The notes below the pieces were generated by a model that was not told where the DNA came from, ran no database searches, and saw only the letters and a program-made list of their open reading frames with translations. A DNA stretch of 64,000 bases from Brevundimonas sp. UBA6550 (lineage in GTDB: Bacteria; Pseudomonadota; Alphaproteobacteria; Caulobacterales; Caulobacteraceae), in the NCBI RefSeq assembly GCF_002434505.1, contig NZ_DJKE01000003.1, positions 69,776 to 133,775 of the forward strand, in the 5' to 3' direction. Below are positions 21,331 to 32,553 of this stretch, one piece after another. Both the position numbers and the translations under genes were made by a program. The first letter of the stretch is position 1, and the number at the start of each line of letters is the position of its first letter.

Positions 21331-21929
21331 CGGATCAGAACCCCGGCGCGGCGCAGTTCCGCCAAAACGGGCCACAGCGGCAGGCCCAGGACGGTGAAAT
21401 AGTCGCCGTCCACCGACTCGAACAACTGCGCACCCAGCCCCTCCAGCCGATAGGATCCCACGCAGGACAGCAGGGCCTCGCCCTCGGCCGCAAGATAGGC
21501 GTCCAGAAAGGCGTCGGAAAAATCGCGCATCCGCATCTGCACCGTATCGACGCCCGACCAGACGATCTGGCCCTTGGTCGCCAGGGCGGCGCCCGAGTGC
21601 AGCTGGTGCGACCGGCCGCGCATAGACTTCAGGCGACCGCGCGCCTCGTCCAGCGACCGGGCCTTGGACACCAAGCCGCCGTCGAAGGCCAGGGTCTGAT
21701 CCGACCCCAGGACCCAGGCGTCCTCATCGTCGCGCGACACGGCCAGGGCCTTGGCCTCGGCCAGGCGGACGGCCAGGGCGGCGGGGTCTAGGTCGCCGGA
21801 TGCGGCCTTGATCGCATCCTCGTCCACGTCGGCGACGCGCACGGCGAACGACACGCCGGCGTTTTCCAGCATGGCCCGCCGGGCCGCGCTCTTGGAGGCC
21901 AGGATCAGAGGCTGTGTCGTCTCGCTCAC
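21327..21929 (-). CDS. maf: Maf family nucleotide pyrophosphatase
   Basis: A 200-residue nucleoside triphosphate pyrophosphatase, thought to cleanse non-canonical or excess nucleotides and historically linked to septum formation. The signature ILASKSAARRAMLENAG is at the N terminus, and the conserved VLGSDQTLAFDG and FSDAFLDAYL parts follow. The start is GTG at 21929, overlapping the ppsR stop (GTGA); the longer frame to 22316 is a shadow. The paralogue type (Maf versus YceF) cannot be decided by eye. Confidence 0.92.
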   Translation of the reverse strand: MSETTQPLILASKSAARRAMLENAGVSFAVRVADVDEDAIKAASGDLDPAALAVRLAEAKALAVSRDDEDAWVLGSDQTLAFDGGLVSKARSLDEARGRLKSMRGRSHQLHSGAALATKGQIVWSGVDTVQMRMRDFSDAFLDAYLAAEGEALLSCVGSYRLEGLGAQLFESVDGDYFTVLGLPLWPVLAELRRAGVLIR

Positions 21930-22810
21930 CAGGTGGTTCCGATCTTCTGGTTGCGATGCTCGCTGAGCAGGTTGGTGATGGCCGCCGCCGTCTCCTCGAC
22001 CGACCGCCGGCTGACGTCGATGGTGGGCCAGCCCCGCCGTTCGAAGGCCCGGCGCGCCTTGATCGTCTCGTCGCGCACGGCTTCCTGGTCGGTATAGGCG
22101 GAGGAGGGGTTGGCGTTCAGATTGTCGATCCGGTTGCGCCGGATCTGGACCAGCCGATCCGGCGAGACGGTCAGGCCGATGACCAGGGGATTCTTCAGCT
22201 TCGTCAGCCGCTCGCCGTCCTCCTGGCCCGGCACCAGGGGCACATTGGCCGCGCGGATGCCCCGGTGGGCCAGATAGATGCAGGTCGGGGTCTTGGACGT
22301 CCGGCTGACGCCGCACAGCACCACGTCGGCCCCCTCCAGCTGCTCCAGCGAGCCCTGGCCGTCGTCATAGGCCATGGCGAAATCGAGCGCCGCGATGCGG
22401 TTGAAATAGTCGTGGTCCAGGGCGTGCTGGGCGCCGACGCGGGTCGACAGGGCCGCGCCGAGATAGCGCGACATGGCCCCCACCAGGGGATCGAGCGCGC
22501 CGATCTGGGGCATGTCCAGGCGACGGCACCCCTCTTCCAGCTGTTCGCGCAGACCGCGATCGACCAGGGTGTGGAGAACCACGCCGGGGGCCGAGGCCAC
22601 CTCCTGCAGCACCCGCTCCATCTGCTTGTCGGAGCGGACCAGGGCGTAGATGTGCTCGATCGGGATGACGCCGTCGAAGCGGGCGGTGACCGCCTTGGCC
22701 ATGGCGTTCAGCGTCTCGCCGGTGGAATCCGACACCAGATGGACGTGGAAATAGGTGGCCAGACGGCCGGGATTGGACGGCCGGGCGCCGGACGGTCGGG
22801 CAGGGCTCAT
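21926..22810 (-). CDS. pyruvate, water dikinase regulatory protein (PpsR/PDRP type, DUF299)
   Basis: A 294-residue bifunctional serine/threonine kinase and phosphorylase family that switches PEP synthase or pyruvate phosphate dikinase. Family marks are HLVSDSTGETLNAMAKAV at the N terminus and the P-loop-like GVSRTSKTPTCIYLA near residue 155. The C-terminal RGWPTIDVSRRSVEETAAA is also typical. It is the first gene of a leftward run (ppsR, maf, aroE, coaE, dnaQ) that starts at the edge of the origin region, co-oriented with leftward replication. Confidence 0.94.
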   Translation of the reverse strand: MSPARPSGARPSNPGRLATYFHVHLVSDSTGETLNAMAKAVTARFDGVIPIEHIYALVRSDKQMERVLQEVASAPGVVLHTLVDRGLREQLEEGCRRLDMPQIGALDPLVGAMSRYLGAALSTRVGAQHALDHDYFNRIAALDFAMAYDDGQGSLEQLEGADVVLCGVSRTSKTPTCIYLAHRGIRAANVPLVPGQEDGERLTKLKNPLVIGLTVSPDRLVQIRRNRIDNLNANPSSAYTDQEAVRDETIKARRAFERRGWPTIDVSRRSVEETAAAITNLLSEHRNQKIGTTW

Positions 22811-22972
22811 ACGGTCGGTCTCCCTGTTGAAACTTCGGGGACGGCGGGGGATCGCCGGGGCGCCGTTTGTCTTAGCCGCTCAAGGTTCACGCCGCGAGCG
22901 GGGATGAGGGTGGATCGCATCGTCCGCAAGCGCCCGGTTCATCCCAAGGCGGAAAACCCGTTTTGCCCTCGC

Positions 22973-22981
22973 TGTGGAAAA
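22973..22981 (-). promoter_or_regulatory. DnaA-box-like sequence
   Basis: The plus strand reads TGTGGAAAA, so the minus strand is TTTTCCACA, one base from the strong consensus TTATCCACA. It lies inside the proposed origin. A second, weaker candidate (TTGTCCACC) is at 23066-23074. Confidence 0.6.
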
Positions 22982-23047
22982 TCCTAATGGAAGGTTAACG
23001 CCGCTTAACCGCGTTCACAGGCGCAAAGCCCCGCAAAGCCTTTGTCG

Positions 23048-23062
23048 TTAAGGTTTCGTTAG
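23048..23062 (+). promoter_or_regulatory. CtrA-type binding site
   Basis: TTAA at 23048-23051, seven bases, then TTAG at 23059-23062: one base from the CtrA consensus TTAA-N7-TTAA. In Caulobacter several such sites in Cori let CtrA block initiation in swarmer cells. A nearby pair GGTTAA/TTAACC has a six-base gap and is inverted, so it is only a weaker candidate. Confidence 0.55.
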
Positions 23063-23258
23063 GGATTGTCCACCGGCGGAAAACCCCCCGACGACCATCC
23101 CCGTTAACGATAGTCGGGCCGGGGATATCCGCTTTTGTTCCGCCGCGAAGGCCGAAGTCATCCCCGTCATTCCACCGCCCTACCTGCCACTTCGAATCTT
23201 TTAATTCTTATTTTGATTAGGGATTGAGAGCGGGGGGCTGTGACCTTAATCGTCCGGC

Positions 23259-24317
23259 ATGACCGATCCGACCCAGAACGCCGATCAGACGCCCTTGATG
23301 ATACGGGCTCTCCGAGGAGAGACGCTGGATCGTCCGCCCGTCTGGTTCATGCGCCAGGCCGGGCGGTATTTGCCGGAGTATCGTCGGCTGAGAGCCGAGG
23401 CGCCGGACTTCATCGCCTTCTGTCTGAACCCGGAGATGGCGGCCGAGGCGACGTTGCAGCCTATGCGGCGTTTCGGCTTCGATGCGGCCATCGTCTTCGC
23501 CGACATTCTGTTGATCCCGCGCGCCTTGGGTCAGGACGTCTGGTTCGAGACGGGCGAGGGGCCCCGGCTTGGCGAAATGCCGATCCCCGGTCGGATGGCC
23601 GAGCTGGCGCCGTCGGCGGGCGAGCATCTGTCGGCGGTGGGGGAAACTCTGTCGATCGTGCGCGCGGCGCTGGAGCCCGAGCGCGCCCTGATCGGGTTCG
23701 CCGGCGCGCCCTGGACGGTGGCCACCTATATGCTGGACGGCGAACACCGGACCATCGGCAAGGGCGAACGCGCCCAGGCCCGCACCTACGCCTACGCCGA
23801 TCCCAAGCGCGTGGACGAGACGCTGGAGGTTCTGGTCGAGGCCACGGCCCGGTATCTGAAGATGCAGGCCGACGCCGGCGCCCAGGTGCTGAAGATCTTC
23901 GAGAGCTGGGCCGAGGGCCTGCCCGACGATCTGTTCGAACGCCTGGTCCTGAAGCCCCACCAGGCGCTTGTCCGGCGCACGCGGGAGCTGGGGGTCACCG
24001 TGCCGCTGATCGGCTTCCCACGGGGCTCTGCGGCGCTTGCAGAGCGGTATGCCGAACAGGTCGAGGTCGACGCCGTCGCGCTCGACACCGCCTGTCCTAT
24101 GGAGGTCGGCAAACGGGTGCAGCGGATCAAGCCGATCCAGGGCGCCCTGGACCCGCTTCTGCTCCGTGCGGGCGGCGACATGCTGGACCGCCGCGTCGAT
24201 CAGCTGATGGAGGCCTGGGGTCAGGGGCCGTGGATCTTCAACCTGGGCCACGGCATCCTGCCGGACGTGCCCATCGACCATGTCGAACAGGTGTTGAAAC
24301 GGATCGGCGCCCAATGA
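23259..24317 (+). CDS. hemE: uroporphyrinogen decarboxylase
   Basis: A 352-residue haem-pathway enzyme that converts uroporphyrinogen III to coproporphyrinogen III in the cytosol. The signatures PPVWFMRQAGRYLPEYRRLR near residue 26 and GFAGAPWTVATYM near 148 are intact. The conserved catalytic aspartate lies in FADILLIPRALG. The C-terminal GHGILPDVPIDHV is typical. The ATG at 23259 lies at the right edge of the origin region, as in Caulobacter, where hemE promoters overlap Cori. Its stop overlaps the hemH start (ATGA). Confidence 0.97.
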   Translation: MTDPTQNADQTPLMIRALRGETLDRPPVWFMRQAGRYLPEYRRLRAEAPDFIAFCLNPEMAAEATLQPMRRFGFDAAIVFADILLIPRALGQDVWFETGEGPRLGEMPIPGRMAELAPSAGEHLSAVGETLSIVRAALEPERALIGFAGAPWTVATYMLDGEHRTIGKGERAQARTYAYADPKRVDETLEVLVEATARYLKMQADAGAQVLKIFESWAEGLPDDLFERLVLKPHQALVRRTRELGVTVPLIGFPRGSAALAERYAEQVEVDAVALDTACPMEVGKRVQRIKPIQGALDPLLLRAGGDMLDRRVDQLMEAWGQGPWIFNLGHGILPDVPIDHVEQVLKRIGAQ

Positions 24318-27518: not shown

Positions 27519-27534
27519 TGTTTCACGTGAAACG
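27519..27534. other. parS: parS site 1 (ParB-binding)
   Basis: TGTTTCACGTGAAACG differs only in the last base from the 16-base parS palindrome TGTTTCACGTGAAACA. The changed last base is the first G of the GGAG ribosome site of the next gene (start 27547), so ParB binding would cover that translation signal. Confidence 0.88.
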
Positions 27535-27546
27535 GAGCTGAGGCCG

Positions 27547-27771
27547 ATGAAGATCAATGTCGAAGTCGATTGCACCCCGGCCGAGGCGCGGGCCTTCCTC
27601 GGCCTGCCCGACGTCACCCCGCTGAACGACGCCATGGTCGCCGAGATGCAGAAGCGGATGCAGGACAATGTCGCCGCCATGCAGCCCGAGGAGTTGATGA
27701 AGACCTGGACCAGCTTCGGCCTTCAGGCCCAGGACCAGTTCCGGCGCTTGATGGAAGCGGCGGTTAAGTGA
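27547..27771 (+). CDS. small conserved alphaproteobacterial protein (probably DUF6489)
   Basis: A 74-residue protein with no signal peptide. The N terminus MKINVEVDCTPAEARAFLGL is a beta strand followed by a helix, then LPDVTPLNDAMVAEMQKRMQ and a C-terminal helix ending in FRRLMEAAVK. I recall this pattern as an uncharacterised alphaproteobacterial family, probably DUF6489, but that label is from memory. It lies between rho and mnmE, with a parS site just before its ribosome site (GGAG). No function is known. Confidence 0.75.
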   Translation: MKINVEVDCTPAEARAFLGLPDVTPLNDAMVAEMQKRMQDNVAAMQPEELMKTWTSFGLQAQDQFRRLMEAAVK

Positions 27772-27844
27772 TCGGTGACCTCCGCCCGTAGAACGGGGAG
27801 GACGCGCCGCGCCAACGTCCGCAGGGGTATGGCGAGGAGACCTG

Positions 27845-29146
27845 ATGACCGACACCATCTTCGCCCTCGCCACCCCGCCCGGTCGCGGAGCCATAGCCGT
27901 AATTCGGTTGTCGGGGCCGGCCGTCGAGGCGACGCTTGCCTCGCTGGGGGGGCATCGGCTCAAGCCGCGCATGGCTTCGGTCCGCAACCTGACCCACCAG
28001 GGCGCCACAATCGACCAGGCGCTGGTGTTGCGGTTCGTGGCCCCGCATTCCTATACCGGCGAAGACTCGGCCGAGCTTCATCTACATGGCGGTCGGGCGG
28101 TGGTGGAGGCCGCCAGCCGCGCCCTGATCGCGCTGGGCGTCCGGCCGGCTGAACCGGGCGAGTTCACGCGCCGGGCCTTCCAGAACGGACGAATGGATCT
28201 GGCCCAGGCCGAGGCGGTCGCCGACCTGATCGACGCCGAGACGACCGCCCAGGCGAAACAGGCGCTGGGCCAGCTCGACGGGCGGTTGAGCGAAACCTAC
28301 GCCGGCTTCCGCCGCGATCTCCTCCACGCCCTGGCCCTCGTCGAGGCCGAGATCGACTTCCCGGACGAAGAGGTGCCGGACAATCTGGCGCGCACCGCCG
28401 GCCCGGTGCTGGACCGTCTGATCGAAGATCTGCGTCGCGCCATCGACACCGGCCGGCGCGGTGAGCGGGTGCGGGACGGATATCGCATCGTCCTGATCGG
28501 CGAAACGAACGCGGGCAAGTCATCGTTGTTCAACGCGCTGATCGCGCGCGAAGCCGCCATCGTCACCCCGATCGCGGGAACGACGCGCGACGTGCTGGAC
28601 GCCGAACTGGTGATCGGCGGCTATGCTGTCACCCTGTCCGATACGGCGGGTCTGCGCGAGAGCGACGATCCCGTCGAGGCCGAAGGTGTCCGTCGCGCCC
28701 GCGCGCGGGCGGAACAGGCGGATCTTCGTCTCTGGGTGCGCGCGCCGGGCGACCCAGCGGGGACCGCCGCCGATTACGTCCGCCCCGGCGATCTAATCGT
28801 CGCGACCAAAAGCGATCTCGGCGACCACGATTTCGGCGATGACGGGTTGAGTGTCAGCACGACGACCGGACAGGGGCTTGCCGCTCTGCATGACTGGATC
28901 GCCAGCAGGCTGGCGCGTGACCTTGCCGGTTCCGACTTCCCTGCCGTCACCCGTGAACGGCACCGCCTTCGTCTCAGTGAGGCGCTCGCCGCCGTCGAGA
29001 CGGGTCGCGTCGCGCTGGATATTGCCCCTGAAATGGCGGGGGACGATTTGCGGCGCGCAGCCGAGGCCCTGGCGCGGGTGACAGGCGCTATTGGTGTGGA
29101 AGACATACTGGGTCAGGTCTTCTCCACCTTCTGCATCGGCAAATGA
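27845..29146 (+). CDS. mnmE: tRNA modification GTPase MnmE
   Basis: A 433-residue GTPase (TrmE/ThdF) that works with MnmG to install the cmnm5 modification on wobble uridine of certain tRNAs. The N-terminal folate-binding domain starts DTIFALATPPGRGAIAVIRL and contains HLHGGRAVVEA. The inserted G domain has G1 GETNAGKSS near residue 219, G2 in GTTRD, and G3 DTAGLRES. The protein ends with the catalytic C(I/L)GK motif (FCIGK). All parts are intact. MnmG follows with parS-2 in the gap between. Confidence 0.97.
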   Translation: MTDTIFALATPPGRGAIAVIRLSGPAVEATLASLGGHRLKPRMASVRNLTHQGATIDQALVLRFVAPHSYTGEDSAELHLHGGRAVVEAASRALIALGVRPAEPGEFTRRAFQNGRMDLAQAEAVADLIDAETTAQAKQALGQLDGRLSETYAGFRRDLLHALALVEAEIDFPDEEVPDNLARTAGPVLDRLIEDLRRAIDTGRRGERVRDGYRIVLIGETNAGKSSLFNALIAREAAIVTPIAGTTRDVLDAELVIGGYAVTLSDTAGLRESDDPVEAEGVRRARARAEQADLRLWVRAPGDPAGTAADYVRPGDLIVATKSDLGDHDFGDDGLSVSTTTGQGLAALHDWIASRLARDLAGSDFPAVTRERHRLRLSEALAAVETGRVALDIAPEMAGDDLRRAAEALARVTGAIGVEDILGQVFSTFCIGK

Positions 29147-29163
29147 CGCCTTAGCCATACCGC

Positions 29164-29179
29164 TGTTTCACGTGAAACA
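29164..29179. other. parS: parS site 2 (ParB-binding)
   Basis: TGTTTCACGTGAAACA, a perfect 16-base parS palindrome, in the 92-base gap between mnmE and mnmG. It lies about 6.1 kb right of the proposed origin. Confidence 0.93.
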
Positions 29180-29238
29180 GCATCCGCTGTGCCCGCCTGT
29201 CACTGGCGAAATGCGCTGACTTGGCCTATGTGGCGCGG

Positions 29239-31119
29239 ATGAGCGATCCTACTGAAATCGTCTTCGACGTCGTCGTCATCGGCGGCGGTCACGCCGGCTG
29301 TGAAGCGGCTGCGGCATCCGCGCGGGCGGGCGCGCGCACGGTCCTGCTAACGCAGAAGCTGGAGACCATCGGCGAGATGTCCTGCAACCCGGCCATCGGC
29401 GGCCTGGGCAAGGGGCATCTGGTGCGAGAGATCGACGCCCTTGATGGGGTCATGGGGCGTCTGGCCGACGTCTCGGGCATCCAGTTCCGTCTGCTGAACC
29501 GTTCCAAGGGCGCCGCCGTTCGTGGGCCTCGCAGCCAGATCGACCGTCGCCTTTATCGCGAGGCCATGCAGGCCGAAATGGCCGCGACGCCGAATCTGAC
29601 GCTGATGGCTGGAACGGCTGAGCGGTTGCTTCTGGAGGGCGACCGGGTGGTCGGCGTCATGACGGGTGCGGGGGAAACGATCCGCGCCGGCGCCGTAGTC
29701 CTGACCACGGGCACCTTCCTCAATGGCGTCATCCACCGCGGCGACGCGCGTATTCCAGCCGGGCGGCACGGCGAAGATCCGTCGACGGGATTGGCGGCCG
29801 ACCTCCACGTCGCCGACCTGACCATGGGACGATTGAAGACGGGCACGCCGGCGCGGCTGGACGGCCGCACCATCGCCTGGGACCGTCTGGAAATGCAGCA
29901 GGCGGACGAGACCCCCTCCGCCTTCTCCTTCATGACCGACGCCATCGCCGTGCCGCAGATCGCCTGCGGCGTGACGCATACGACGGAAGAGACGCACCGC
30001 ATCATCGCCGAGAACCTGGGCGAGAGCGCCGTCTATGGCGGTCGGTTGTCGGGGAGGGGACCTCGCTACTGCCCCTCTATCGAGGACAAGGTGGTGCGCT
30101 TCGCCGACAAGACCAGCCACCAGATATTCCTGGAGCCGGAGGGCCTGGACGACCCGACCGTCTATCCGAACGGCATCTCGACCTCCGTTTCGGAGACGAC
30201 GCAACTCGCCTTCTTGCGGACCATTCCCGGCCTGGAGGCGGTCGAGGTGTTTCGCTACGGCTACGCCATCGAATACGACTATGTCGATCCGCGTGAGTTG
30301 ACGCCCTCTCTCGAGGTGAAGAAGCGGCCCGGCCTTTATCTGGCCGGTCAGATCAATGGCACGACCGGCTACGAGGAGGCGGCGGCCCAGGGTCTGATGG
30401 CGGGGGTGAATGCGGCGCGGGCTTCGGGCGGGCAGTCGCCTGTCATCCTGGGACGAGACCAGGCCTATATCGGCGTCATGATCGACGACTTGGTCACGCG
30501 CGGCGTGACGGAGCCGTATCGGATGTTCACCAGTCGCGCTGAGTATCGTCTGACCCTCAGAGCGGACAACGCCGATCAGCGGCTGACGCCCTTAGGTATC
30601 GACCTGGGCATTGTCGGCGAGGCGCGCCGCCAGCGGTTCGAAGCCAAGGCGCTCGCACTTTTGGAAGCGGGCGCTGTTTCACGTGAAACACTGTTTACGC
30701 CGAACGAGGCGGGCGGGCTGGGGATCACAGTGAATGCCGACGGCCGGCGCAGGTCCATGCGCGAGCTGCTGGCCTTCCCGGATGTGACGTTGGACCAGTT
30801 TCTGCCCGCCGTGCCGCAGATCGCGTCCTGGGCCGACGAGGTCCGCGAACAGGTCGTCATCGACGCCGGCTACGCCAACTATCTGGACCGTCAATCGCTC
30901 GACGCCGAAGCTCTGAGAACAGAGGAGGCGCTGACCCTGCCGCTCGATCTCGACTATGGAGCGATCGGTGGGCTTTCCAACGAAGTGCGGGAGAAGCTGA
31001 CGCGGGTGCAACCGATGACCTTGGGCCAGGCCGGACGGATCGAGGGTATGACGCCCGGCGCGCTGACGGCGCTGCTCGCCCATGTGAAGCGCGGACACCG
31101 CACGACGGTCGCCGCCTGA
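29239..31119 (+). CDS. mnmG: tRNA uridine-5-carboxymethylaminomethyl modification enzyme MnmG
   Basis: A 626-residue FAD enzyme (GidA), partner of MnmE in wobble-uridine modification. The dinucleotide fold is [15 protein letters not shown] at the N terminus. GidA signatures include [35 protein letters not shown] and [16 protein letters not shown]; the C-terminal domain has [21 protein letters not shown] 29239 is chosen; an in-frame TTG at 29221 is unlikely. A perfect parS site lies inside the gene and encodes part of AVSRET. The stop overlaps the rsmG start by one base. Confidence 0.97.
30675..30690. other. parS: parS site 3 (ParB-binding), inside mnmG
   Basis: TGTTTCACGTGAAACA, a perfect parS palindrome, within the mnmG reading frame near codon 480 where it spells V-S-R-E-T. 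ParB sites inside gidA are known in other bacteria, so a dual coding and partition role is reasonable. Confidence 0.93.
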
Positions 31120-31751
31120 TGCTGGACGACGAAAGAGCCGCGTTTCAGACCCGCGCTCAAGCCACCCCAGCGCAGCTTTCGGATCTGGAGGCTTTTCGCA
31201 TTCGGCTTGAAGACGCCAATGCGGTGATGAATCTCGTCGGGCCGGACAGCCTGCCGGACTTCTGGAACCGTCATGCCTGGGACAGCGCCCAACTGATGCA
31301 GATGGCGCCCGAGGCGTTGACGTGGGCGGACATTGGGGCGGGGGCGGGGTTCCCGGGCGTCGTCCTGGCGATCCTGGCCAAGGGCCGCGCCGACGCTCAC
31401 GTCTGGCTGGTCGATTCGTTGGGCAAGCGATGCCGCTTCCTTCAGGAGGTGGTCGATGCGCTGAACCTGCCGGCCACGGTAATCAATGGCCGGGCCGAGG
31501 AGCAGCGGATCAGATGCGATATCGTGACCGCGCGGGCGGTGGCGCCGATGGACAAGTTGCTGGGTTATGCACAGCCCTACTTTGAAAGGGGTGCACAAGG
31601 TCTGTTCCTGAAGGGGGAGAAGGCCGAATCCGAGTTGATCGAAGCACGGAAATCCTGGCATTTCGAAGCGGAACTGGCCCCGTCGCAGAGCGACCCACGC
31701 GGCCGCATCGTGACAATTCGGAGTGTTCGACGTGCCCGCAGTCGGTCGTAA
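31119..31751 (+). CDS. rsmG: 16S rRNA (guanine-527-N7) methyltransferase RsmG
   Basis: A 210-residue SAM-dependent methyltransferase (GidB) acting on 16S rRNA G527; loss gives low-level streptomycin resistance in many bacteria. The N-terminal segment includes RLEDANAVMNLVGPDSLPDFWNRH. The SAM-binding motif is WADIGAGAGFPGVVLAI near residue 68, followed by the conserved VDSLGKRCRFLQEV. The ATG is coupled to the mnmG stop, and the 3' end runs 20 bases into parA. Confidence 0.95.
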   Translation: MLDDERAAFQTRAQATPAQLSDLEAFRIRLEDANAVMNLVGPDSLPDFWNRHAWDSAQLMQMAPEALTWADIGAGAGFPGVVLAILAKGRADAHVWLVDSLGKRCRFLQEVVDALNLPATVINGRAEEQRIRCDIVTARAVAPMDKLLGYAQPYFERGAQGLFLKGEKAESELIEARKSWHFEAELAPSQSDPRGRIVTIRSVRRARSRS

Positions 31752-32553
31752 GAAACAGCCCGCACGGGTTCTTGCCGTGTCCAATCAGAAGGGCGGTGTG
31801 GGCAAGACCACGACCGCGATCAATCTCGGCACAGCCCTGGCGGCCATCGGCGAGCGTGTGCTGATCGTGGACATGGACCCGCAGGGCAATGCTTCGACAG
31901 GACTGGGTGTTCCACGTGAAACACGGCGCGTCACCATTTACGACGTGGTCGTGGACCAACGTTCCATCGATGATGCCGCGGTTCAAACCACGGTGCCTGG
32001 CCTCTGGATCGTGCCGGCGGACGCCGATATGTCGGGGGTCGAAATCGAGTTGAGCCAGGCGGATCGTCGGTCCTATCGCTTGCGCGACGCCCTAAGGGCG
32101 CACGACGACGGCCCTACCGCGTATGACTATGTGCTGATCGACTGCCCCCCGTCGCTGAACCTTCTGACGTTGAACGCCATGGCGGCGGCGGACGCGGTTC
32201 TGGTGCCGTTGCAGTGCGAATTCTTCGCGTTGGAAGGGTTGAGCCAACTGATGCGGACCATCGACATGGTCAAGCACAGCCTGAACCCGTCGCTAGAAAT
32301 CCAGGGCCTTGTCCTGACGATGTTCGACCGCCGCAGCGCCTTGTCGGGGCAGGTGGCGAACGATGTCCGCGCCCATTTCGGCGACAAGGTCTATGAGAGC
32401 GTCATACCGCGCAATGTTCGCGTGGCCGAGGCGCCGTCCTTCGGTAAGCCGGCCCTGATCTACGATCTGAAATGCGCCGGCAGCCAGGCCTATCTGCGTC
32501 TGGCGCGCGAGGTCGTGAAGCGCGAGCGGCAACGGCTGAAGCTGGCCGCCTGA
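31732..32553 (+). CDS. parA: chromosome partitioning ATPase ParA
   Basis: A 273-residue deviant Walker ATPase that, with ParB-parS, segregates the origin region; in Caulobacter it pulls ParB towards the pole-bound PopZ/TipN. The Walker A motif is KGGVGKT at 20-26, A' is IVDMDPQGNAST, and Walker B is YVLIDCPPSLNLL. GTG 31732 is preferred because a GGAG site at 31720-31723 stands 8 bases before it; GTG 31723 overlaps that site. parS-4 lies inside the gene. The gene overlaps rsmG and is followed by parB after 26 bases. Confidence 0.95.
   Translation: MPAVGRKKQPARVLAVSNQKGGVGKTTTAINLGTALAAIGERVLIVDMDPQGNASTGLGVPRETRRVTIYDVVVDQRSIDDAAVQTTVPGLWIVPADADMSGVEIELSQADRRSYRLRDALRAHDDGPTAYDYVLIDCPPSLNLLTLNAMAAADAVLVPLQCEFFALEGLSQLMRTIDMVKHSLNPSLEIQGLVLTMFDRRSALSGQVANDVRAHFGDKVYESVIPRNVRVAEAPSFGKPALIYDLKCAGSQAYLRLAREVVKRERQRLKLAA
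31908..31923. other. parS: parS site 4 (ParB-binding), inside parA
   Basis: TGTTCCACGTGAAACA fits the broader parS consensus TGTTNCACGTGAAACA and differs from sites 2 and 3 by one base. It lies in the parA frame where it encodes V-P-R-E-T, about 8.9 kb from the proposed origin. Confidence 0.82.

Follow-up and report, generated by a model that had tools for sequence, protein, structure and literature searches.

The window, by which we mean the whole 64,000-nucleotide stretch analysed here, contains a gap of 448 bases between two divergent genes, a kinase/pyrophosphorylase (PPPase) gene and hemE. The genes, the sites that we detected within the gap, and the parS-like sites to its right are as follows.

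21926–22810, minus strand: kinase/pyrophosphorylase gene, PF03618, COG1806 family, left flank (Pfam match, 284 bits)
22811–23258, no strand: predicted chromosome origin, the 448-base gap (synteny, motifs, conservation)
22858–22867, plus strand: GGGCGCCGTT, the window's single copy of a motif multiplied in the diminuta clade (motif scan)
22899–22905, minus strand: ATCCCCG motif, putatively a weak DnaA-box-like site (motif scan)
22973–22981, minus strand: DnaA-like nonamer TTTTCCACA, 8/9 to TTATCCACA, 2 bp from CtrA-type site 1
22984–22998, plus strand: CtrA-type site 1, CTAATGGAAGGTTAA, 7/8 consensus match
23048–23062, plus strand: CtrA-type site 2, TTAAGGTTTCGTTAG (TTAA-N7-TTAG), 7/8 consensus match
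23066–23074, plus strand: DnaA-like nonamer TTGTCCACC, 7/9, 3 bp from CtrA-type site 2
23097–23103, plus strand: ATCCCCG motif (motif scan)
23120–23126, minus strand: ATCCCCG motif (motif scan)
23160–23166, plus strand: ATCCCCG motif (motif scan)
23191–23230, no strand: AT-rich stretch, predicted unwinding element, the best 40-bp AT window of the gap and unequalled in the 64-kb window
23259–24317, plus strand: hemE, uroporphyrinogen decarboxylase, PF01208, right flank (Pfam match, 336 bits)
27519–27534, no strand: parS-like site, 0 mismatches on one strand and 1 on the other
29164–29179, no strand: parS-like site, 0 mismatches
30675–30690, no strand: parS-like site, 0 mismatches
31908–31923, no strand: parS-like site, 1 mismatch

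The earlier note on this DNA had likened the gap, directly upstream of hemE, to the Caulobacter origin (Cori), and the likeness holds: PF03618 and hemE are the flanking pair of the mapped Caulobacter origin, which is reported to lie between hemE and COG1806 with DnaA, CtrA, and IHF sites (PMC1914354). The change of gene orientation that it pointed to was also found well beyond this genome, as 96 of the 97 loci examined show hemE and the PPPase gene pointing away from each other; the 97th (L106) is without hemE and was excluded from the counts, and three more loci (L145, L146, and L148), in which the PPPase gene was not found upstream, were excluded before counting. The nearest named locus to the window's is that of Brevundimonas sp. 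EYE_349. Twelve plasmid records matched the query and none covered 80% of it. On a 425-kb record labelled as a Sphingomonas parapaucimobilis plasmid (NZ_CP155751.1, 139303–141393; H1), hemE adjoins a pyruvate, water dikinase regulatory protein gene, as it does on the flanks of hemE-type origins; the record is possibly a second chromosome, or else a fragment of a chromosome that was misfiled.

We detected two CtrA-type sites in the gap, defined as matches of at least 7/8 to TTAA-N7-TTAA, which is a consensus test only. The TTAA-N7-TTAG site had been reported earlier and site 1 overlooked; the two are the only matches at this level in the 64-kb window. The DnaA-box-like site TTTTCCACA was likewise present as described, and is weak evidence taken alone because five further matches of at least 8/9 to TTATCCACA occur elsewhere in the 64 kb. 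The window's gap held no perfect TTAA-N7-TTAA, no perfect DnaA box, and neither the Caulobacter G-box TGATCCACA nor the W-box TCCCCA (sequences as given in PMC4285127). The sites follow a compact order, with TTTTCCACA on the minus strand, 2 bp, and CtrA-type site 1, then site 2 starting 64 bp after the start of site 1, 3 bp, and the nonamer TTGTCCACC, which is replaced by TTATCCACC in three close relatives. All 16 gaps of the window's clade showed this nonamer–CtrA and CtrA–nonamer layout, its letters varying slightly. The two G-boxes of Cori are described as close to or overlapping CtrA sites, with DnaA exclusion as the simplest mode of CtrA action (reviewed in PMC4468827), and the spacing seen here fits that published model, in which bound CtrA would exclude DnaA.

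We compared 81 gaps, the window's and those of 80 named loci, of which 14 fall in a clade comprising B. diminuta, naejangsanensis, guildfordensis, bullata, terrae, pishanensis, and unnamed kin (hereafter the diminuta clade) and 67 outside it. CtrA-type sites numbered 120 in the 81 gaps versus 2.75 in letter shuffles, with a first-order Markov expectation of 2.6 for the 67 gaps outside the diminuta clade. The spacer of 7 was the most frequent in the 81 gaps, both at 7/8 or better (120 versus 67 at the next, spacer 3) and among perfect matches (52 versus 16 at spacer 6). Such sites were present in 66 of the 67 gaps and in every gap that could be read in other genera (21, as three of the 24 loci had no PPPase gene upstream), and as far as motif matches indicate, origin CtrA-type sites are common across Brevundimonas; some origin CtrA sites have also been predicted in Wolbachia and its kin (PMC1914354). 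The sole miss was a MAG locus (L078, NZ_CALMZS010000161.1), whose gap is short, at 355 bp, and whose CtrA score peaks at 6/8; a separate loss or an assembly fault could account for it. Outside the diminuta clade, the core GTGGA lay within 25 bp upstream of a CtrA-type site 33 times versus about 13 expected, and TCCAC within 25 bp downstream 18 times versus about 5. The pairing is enriched and not general, since 51 of the 120 sites in these 67 gaps have the core that close in the orientation tested.

The AT-rich stretch beside hemE that the earlier note had described was borne out, as the gap's best 25-, 30-, and 40-bp windows (starting at 23191–23196) are unequalled in the 64-kb window. A GAATC (GANTC) lies inside it at 23194–23198, and the best 30-bp AT window starts at most 100 bp from hemE in 61 of the 67 gaps outside the diminuta clade and in all 14 inside. 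The motif ATCCCCG, seen four times in the gap versus 0.08 expected at the window's rate, recurs in 65 of the 67 gaps. A 12-base direct repeat, GGCGGAAAACCC, had been named as a further element, and that claim stood in part: its two copies, at 22948–22959 and 23075–23086, are the only ones in the window and are not a conserved pair. Its first 10 bases occur twice in one of the 16 window-clade gaps (the window's own), once in nine, and not at all in six, and we set the repeat aside as an origin element. Among 15 close relatives, nine retain one copy of these bases, and the second copy is peculiar to the window.

Four parS-like sites, overlooked in the earlier note, lie 4–9 kb from the gap. Genome-wide there are 10 parS-like matches with at most 2 mismatches, and eight of them belong to these four sites at 27519–31923. 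A parS cluster 4–9 kb from the gap was present in 10 of 10 further genomes. Five diminuta-clade genomes (G118–G120, G122, and G123) have some 1-mismatch parS-like sites outside the main cluster, the farthest of them about 85 kb from the gap.

Strand asymmetry gave a mixed picture. The earlier note had proposed cumulative GC skew as a check, with a minimum elsewhere counting against an origin: within the window, in 2-kb steps, the minimum does fall at 20–22 kb, but over the whole 134-kb contig it falls about 65 kb left of the gap, which by the note's own criterion counts against the origin. The skew of this genome is weak, and with the contig minimum so placed we discarded GC skew as the deciding test here. 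In a closed relative (G009), 20 stretches of 20 kb were sampled, and on either side eight of ten had the expected skew sign; GGGNAGGG counts were 8/47 on one side and 34/13 on the other (Fisher p 2e-9). On the PPPase side near the gap the skew signs are mixed for 100–200 kb, and the turn is placed only to within roughly 200 kb. In B. diminuta ATCC 11568 (G118) all 13 stretches between −1726 and −11 kb have negative skew and all five to the right have positive skew, with the sign changing at the gap; two stretches beyond −2 Mb are positive, as expected past a terminus, and the point where GGGNAGGG polarity reverses lies about 330 kb to the left. Because the skew turn is off the gap on the window's own contig and coarse in G009, synteny, motifs, and parS carry the case for an origin, and skew helps at the scale of the chromosome or in a relative.

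The failure of skew to pinpoint the gap in this genome leaves room for an alternative in which the gap is only a bidirectional promoter, its CtrA-type and GGCGCC sites regulating hemE and the kinase/pyrophosphorylase gene, with the origin elsewhere near parS. Divergent genes do require promoters in the gap, and outside the diminuta clade 56 of the 67 gaps have a GGCGCC no more than 150 bp from the start of the PPPase gene. In C. crescentus, too, hemE transcription and the noncoding RNA CcnA are reported to start inside the origin (PMC8959179). A search for a CcnA-type RNA returned no Rfam match at 22600–23500, and promoter and origin roles can coexist. We consider a promoter alone very unlikely, given the flanking genes shared with the mapped Cori, the AT-rich and nonamer content described above, and the reversal of GC skew at the gap in G118.

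We therefore return to the reading of the earlier note, which is supported by the Cori synteny, by the CtrA-type, DnaA-like, and AT-rich content of the gap, by conservation in the genus, and by the parS cluster within 9 kb. The gene context, the motifs, their spacing, and their conservation are all plain in the sequence, and we put the probability at roughly 85% that the gap is the chromosome origin, a Cori-type variant with two CtrA-type sites each 2–3 bp from a DnaA-like nonamer. By analogy with C. crescentus, DnaA and CtrA would bind and compete at these sites, ATCCCCG would act as a DnaA site, and replication would start at the gap. CtrA bound at both sites would keep DnaA off in non-replicating cells; once CtrA was removed, DnaA would occupy the two outer nonamers, extend across the weaker ATCCCCG motifs and open the AT-rich stretch (23191–23230) beside hemE, and the parS sites at a distance of 4–9 kb would serve to segregate the duplicated origins.

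The window's gap shares with C. crescentus Cori the hemE/COG1806 flanks, CtrA-type sites beside DnaA-like sites, and an AT-rich stretch by hemE, and its parS sites lie at a similar distance (about 4–9 kb versus about 8 kb in Caulobacter; PMC4468827). It differs in having two CtrA-type sites where five are given for Cori (PMC4468827), TTTTCCACA and TT[AG]TCCACC where Cori has the G-box TGATCCACA, and four copies of ATCCCCG where Cori has the W-box TCCCCA. The G-box is a feature of Caulobacter Cori and not general to hemE-type origins, and on its motif content the window's gap is a predicted hemE-type origin with its own set of boxes.

CtrA-type sites were missing from all 14 diminuta-clade gaps at the 7/8 threshold (best score 5/8 in nine and 6/8 in five) and from all 14 loci at about 6 kb each. 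These loci form one clade (SH-aLRT 99) with the hemE/PPPase synteny kept, in a tree made by a quick method from HemE plus PPPase with 21 other-genus loci; because a clade without such sites is nested in the genus, the simplest reading is that they were lost. All six diminuta-clade genomes tested have kept parS sites and a ctrA gene. One MAG locus (L029, JAFKFS010000033.1), titled Bordetella sp., has an origin locus like that of Brevundimonas diminuta and is probably misnamed.

One way to explain the missing sites is that CtrA still gates the origin through relaxed half-sites missed by our motif test, which is a consensus test only, with nothing swapped. The preferred site of CtrA may indeed have drifted in this clade, since the genome-wide excess of perfect CtrA sites over a reversed-pattern control is weaker in six diminuta-clade genomes (5/5, 6/3, 4/5, 8/2, 9/8, and 8/4) than in nine others (3/0, 8/2, 3/1, 3/1, 4/1, 2/0, 6/1, 5/1, and 5/2). 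The low best scores in the 14 gaps and the lack of a 7/8 match in the ~6-kb loci speak against relaxed half-sites, as does CtrA itself, which is 88–89% identical to a Caulobacter query in 12 of 12 genomes, six of the clade and six others alike. Perfect CtrA-type sites also persist elsewhere in the genome, with TTAATACGACCTTAA found in G118–G121 and G123 as in other genomes, among the matches listed. We regard gating through relaxed sites as unlikely.

The diminuta-clade gaps have GGCGCC in abundance, 6–11 copies each and 117 in total versus 6.7 expected. Their density is 17.4/kb versus 2.4/kb in 400 kb of G118; no 256-bp window held more than five copies in sampled 400-kb stretches of G118 and G009, and none of the seven other GC palindromes tested was enriched in the diminuta-clade gaps. 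The positions are conserved between subclades: all seven GGCGCC sites of locus L039 are kept in L085, L044, and L037, whose gaps are 61–63% identical to that of L039, with 20, 26, and 43 of 150 control GC-rich 6-mers kept in the same three. Spacings of 21, 51, 18, 21, 50, and 24 bp recur in six of the seven diminuta-group gaps, and one gap with six and one with eight sites differ. Over six diminuta-clade genomes, the origin gap holds 11 of the 15 matches to a paired pattern, versus none of six over five other genomes. The one-sided extension GGGCGCCGWW reaches 8.9/kb in the clade (14/14 gaps), 2.1/kb in other Brevundimonas (47/67), 0.4/kb in other genera (3/21), and 0.09–0.10/kb in genome samples; it described the sites better than a longer palindrome around GGCGCC, the flanks of which are weak. 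Helical phasing of the array was also rejected, for 21-bp pairs are the commonest (25 in the clade), but 18, 24, 50, and 51 are out of shared phase. The CtrA gate looks replaceable, in that the one clade without CtrA-type sites in the gap has a position-conserved GGCGCC array there.

An orphan cytosine methyltransferase of Caulobacter is reported to target GGCGCC, and methylation of this sequence in B. subvibrioides is given as undetectable by the method used (both PMC7987155). We found PF00145 enzymes of two related subfamilies (about 45–50% mutual identity) in six of six diminuta-clade genomes and five of six others, and by analogy these may recognise GGCGCC. The genome holding the B. poindexterae locus L063 (G124) was the only one of the 12 tested in which no PF00145 cytosine methyltransferase was found. 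A RAMA domain over the cut-off, as in CcrM, was present in all 12, including six of six in the diminuta clade. The diminuta-clade gaps are also rich in GANTC, with 78 versus 33.7 expected (11.6/kb). Outside the clade this enrichment was not seen in a first-order Markov model (150 observed versus 162); a plain letter shuffle over all 81 gaps gave 228 versus 130. Conserved GANTC places were sought in the diminuta clade and dropped; only the density is notable there, because 0–1 places are shared between subclades.

These observations suggest, tentatively, that the diminuta-clade origin dropped the CtrA gate and is controlled through the fixed GGCGCC array, as an orphan-methyltransferase target, together with the extra GANTC, which would make it a methylation-keyed origin derived from a CtrA-gated one. 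The window's origin would then keep the older state, with its two CtrA-type sites and one GGGCGCCGTT. We hold this to be somewhat unlikely; CcrM is reported not to be needed for initiation control in C. crescentus (PMC3973325), which counts against a simple methylation gate. Dense methylation targets in an origin recall the GATC/SeqA control of E. coli oriC, and in the diminuta clade alone, but the motifs and the enzymes are others.

The array may instead bind a dimeric protein indifferent to methylation, a candidate reader that would account for the fixed GGCGCC positions and spacings and for the one-sided extension. Arrays of repeated sites can control initiation, as plasmid iterons do, and the diminuta-clade array resembles these in having short repeated sites at fixed places in an origin; it differs in its palindromes, its uneven spacing, and its place in a chromosomal DnaA-type origin. 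We know of no GGCGCC-binding protein, and enzymes of the clade with the specificity of the Caulobacter methyltransferase, if it is shared, would methylate the array. A dimeric protein of this kind is a real possibility, if somewhat short of even odds.

CtrA binding at Cori is the classic link of cell fate to replication. Weakening all five CtrA sites in C. crescentus is nonetheless reported to perturb the laboratory cell cycle only mildly (PMC4468827). If the loss is true, a clade without CtrA-type sites inside a genus that keeps them would serve as a natural experiment on the function of the CtrA gate, and the GGCGCC array makes a takeover, by cytosine methylation or by a GGCGCC-binding protein, testable. 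Full-text searches of an open-licence library turned up neither Brevundimonas origins described as free of CtrA nor an origin array of GGCGCC sites, and an earlier description of Brevundimonas origins may exist. A lineage sister to the diminuta clade (L035, support 83) has seven GGCGCC at gap positions −472 to −264 from hemE, one 7/8 CtrA-type site mid-gap (−314 from hemE), and one 7/8 match in the AT-rich stretch, and is possibly an intermediate between the CtrA-type and GGCGCC-array gaps.
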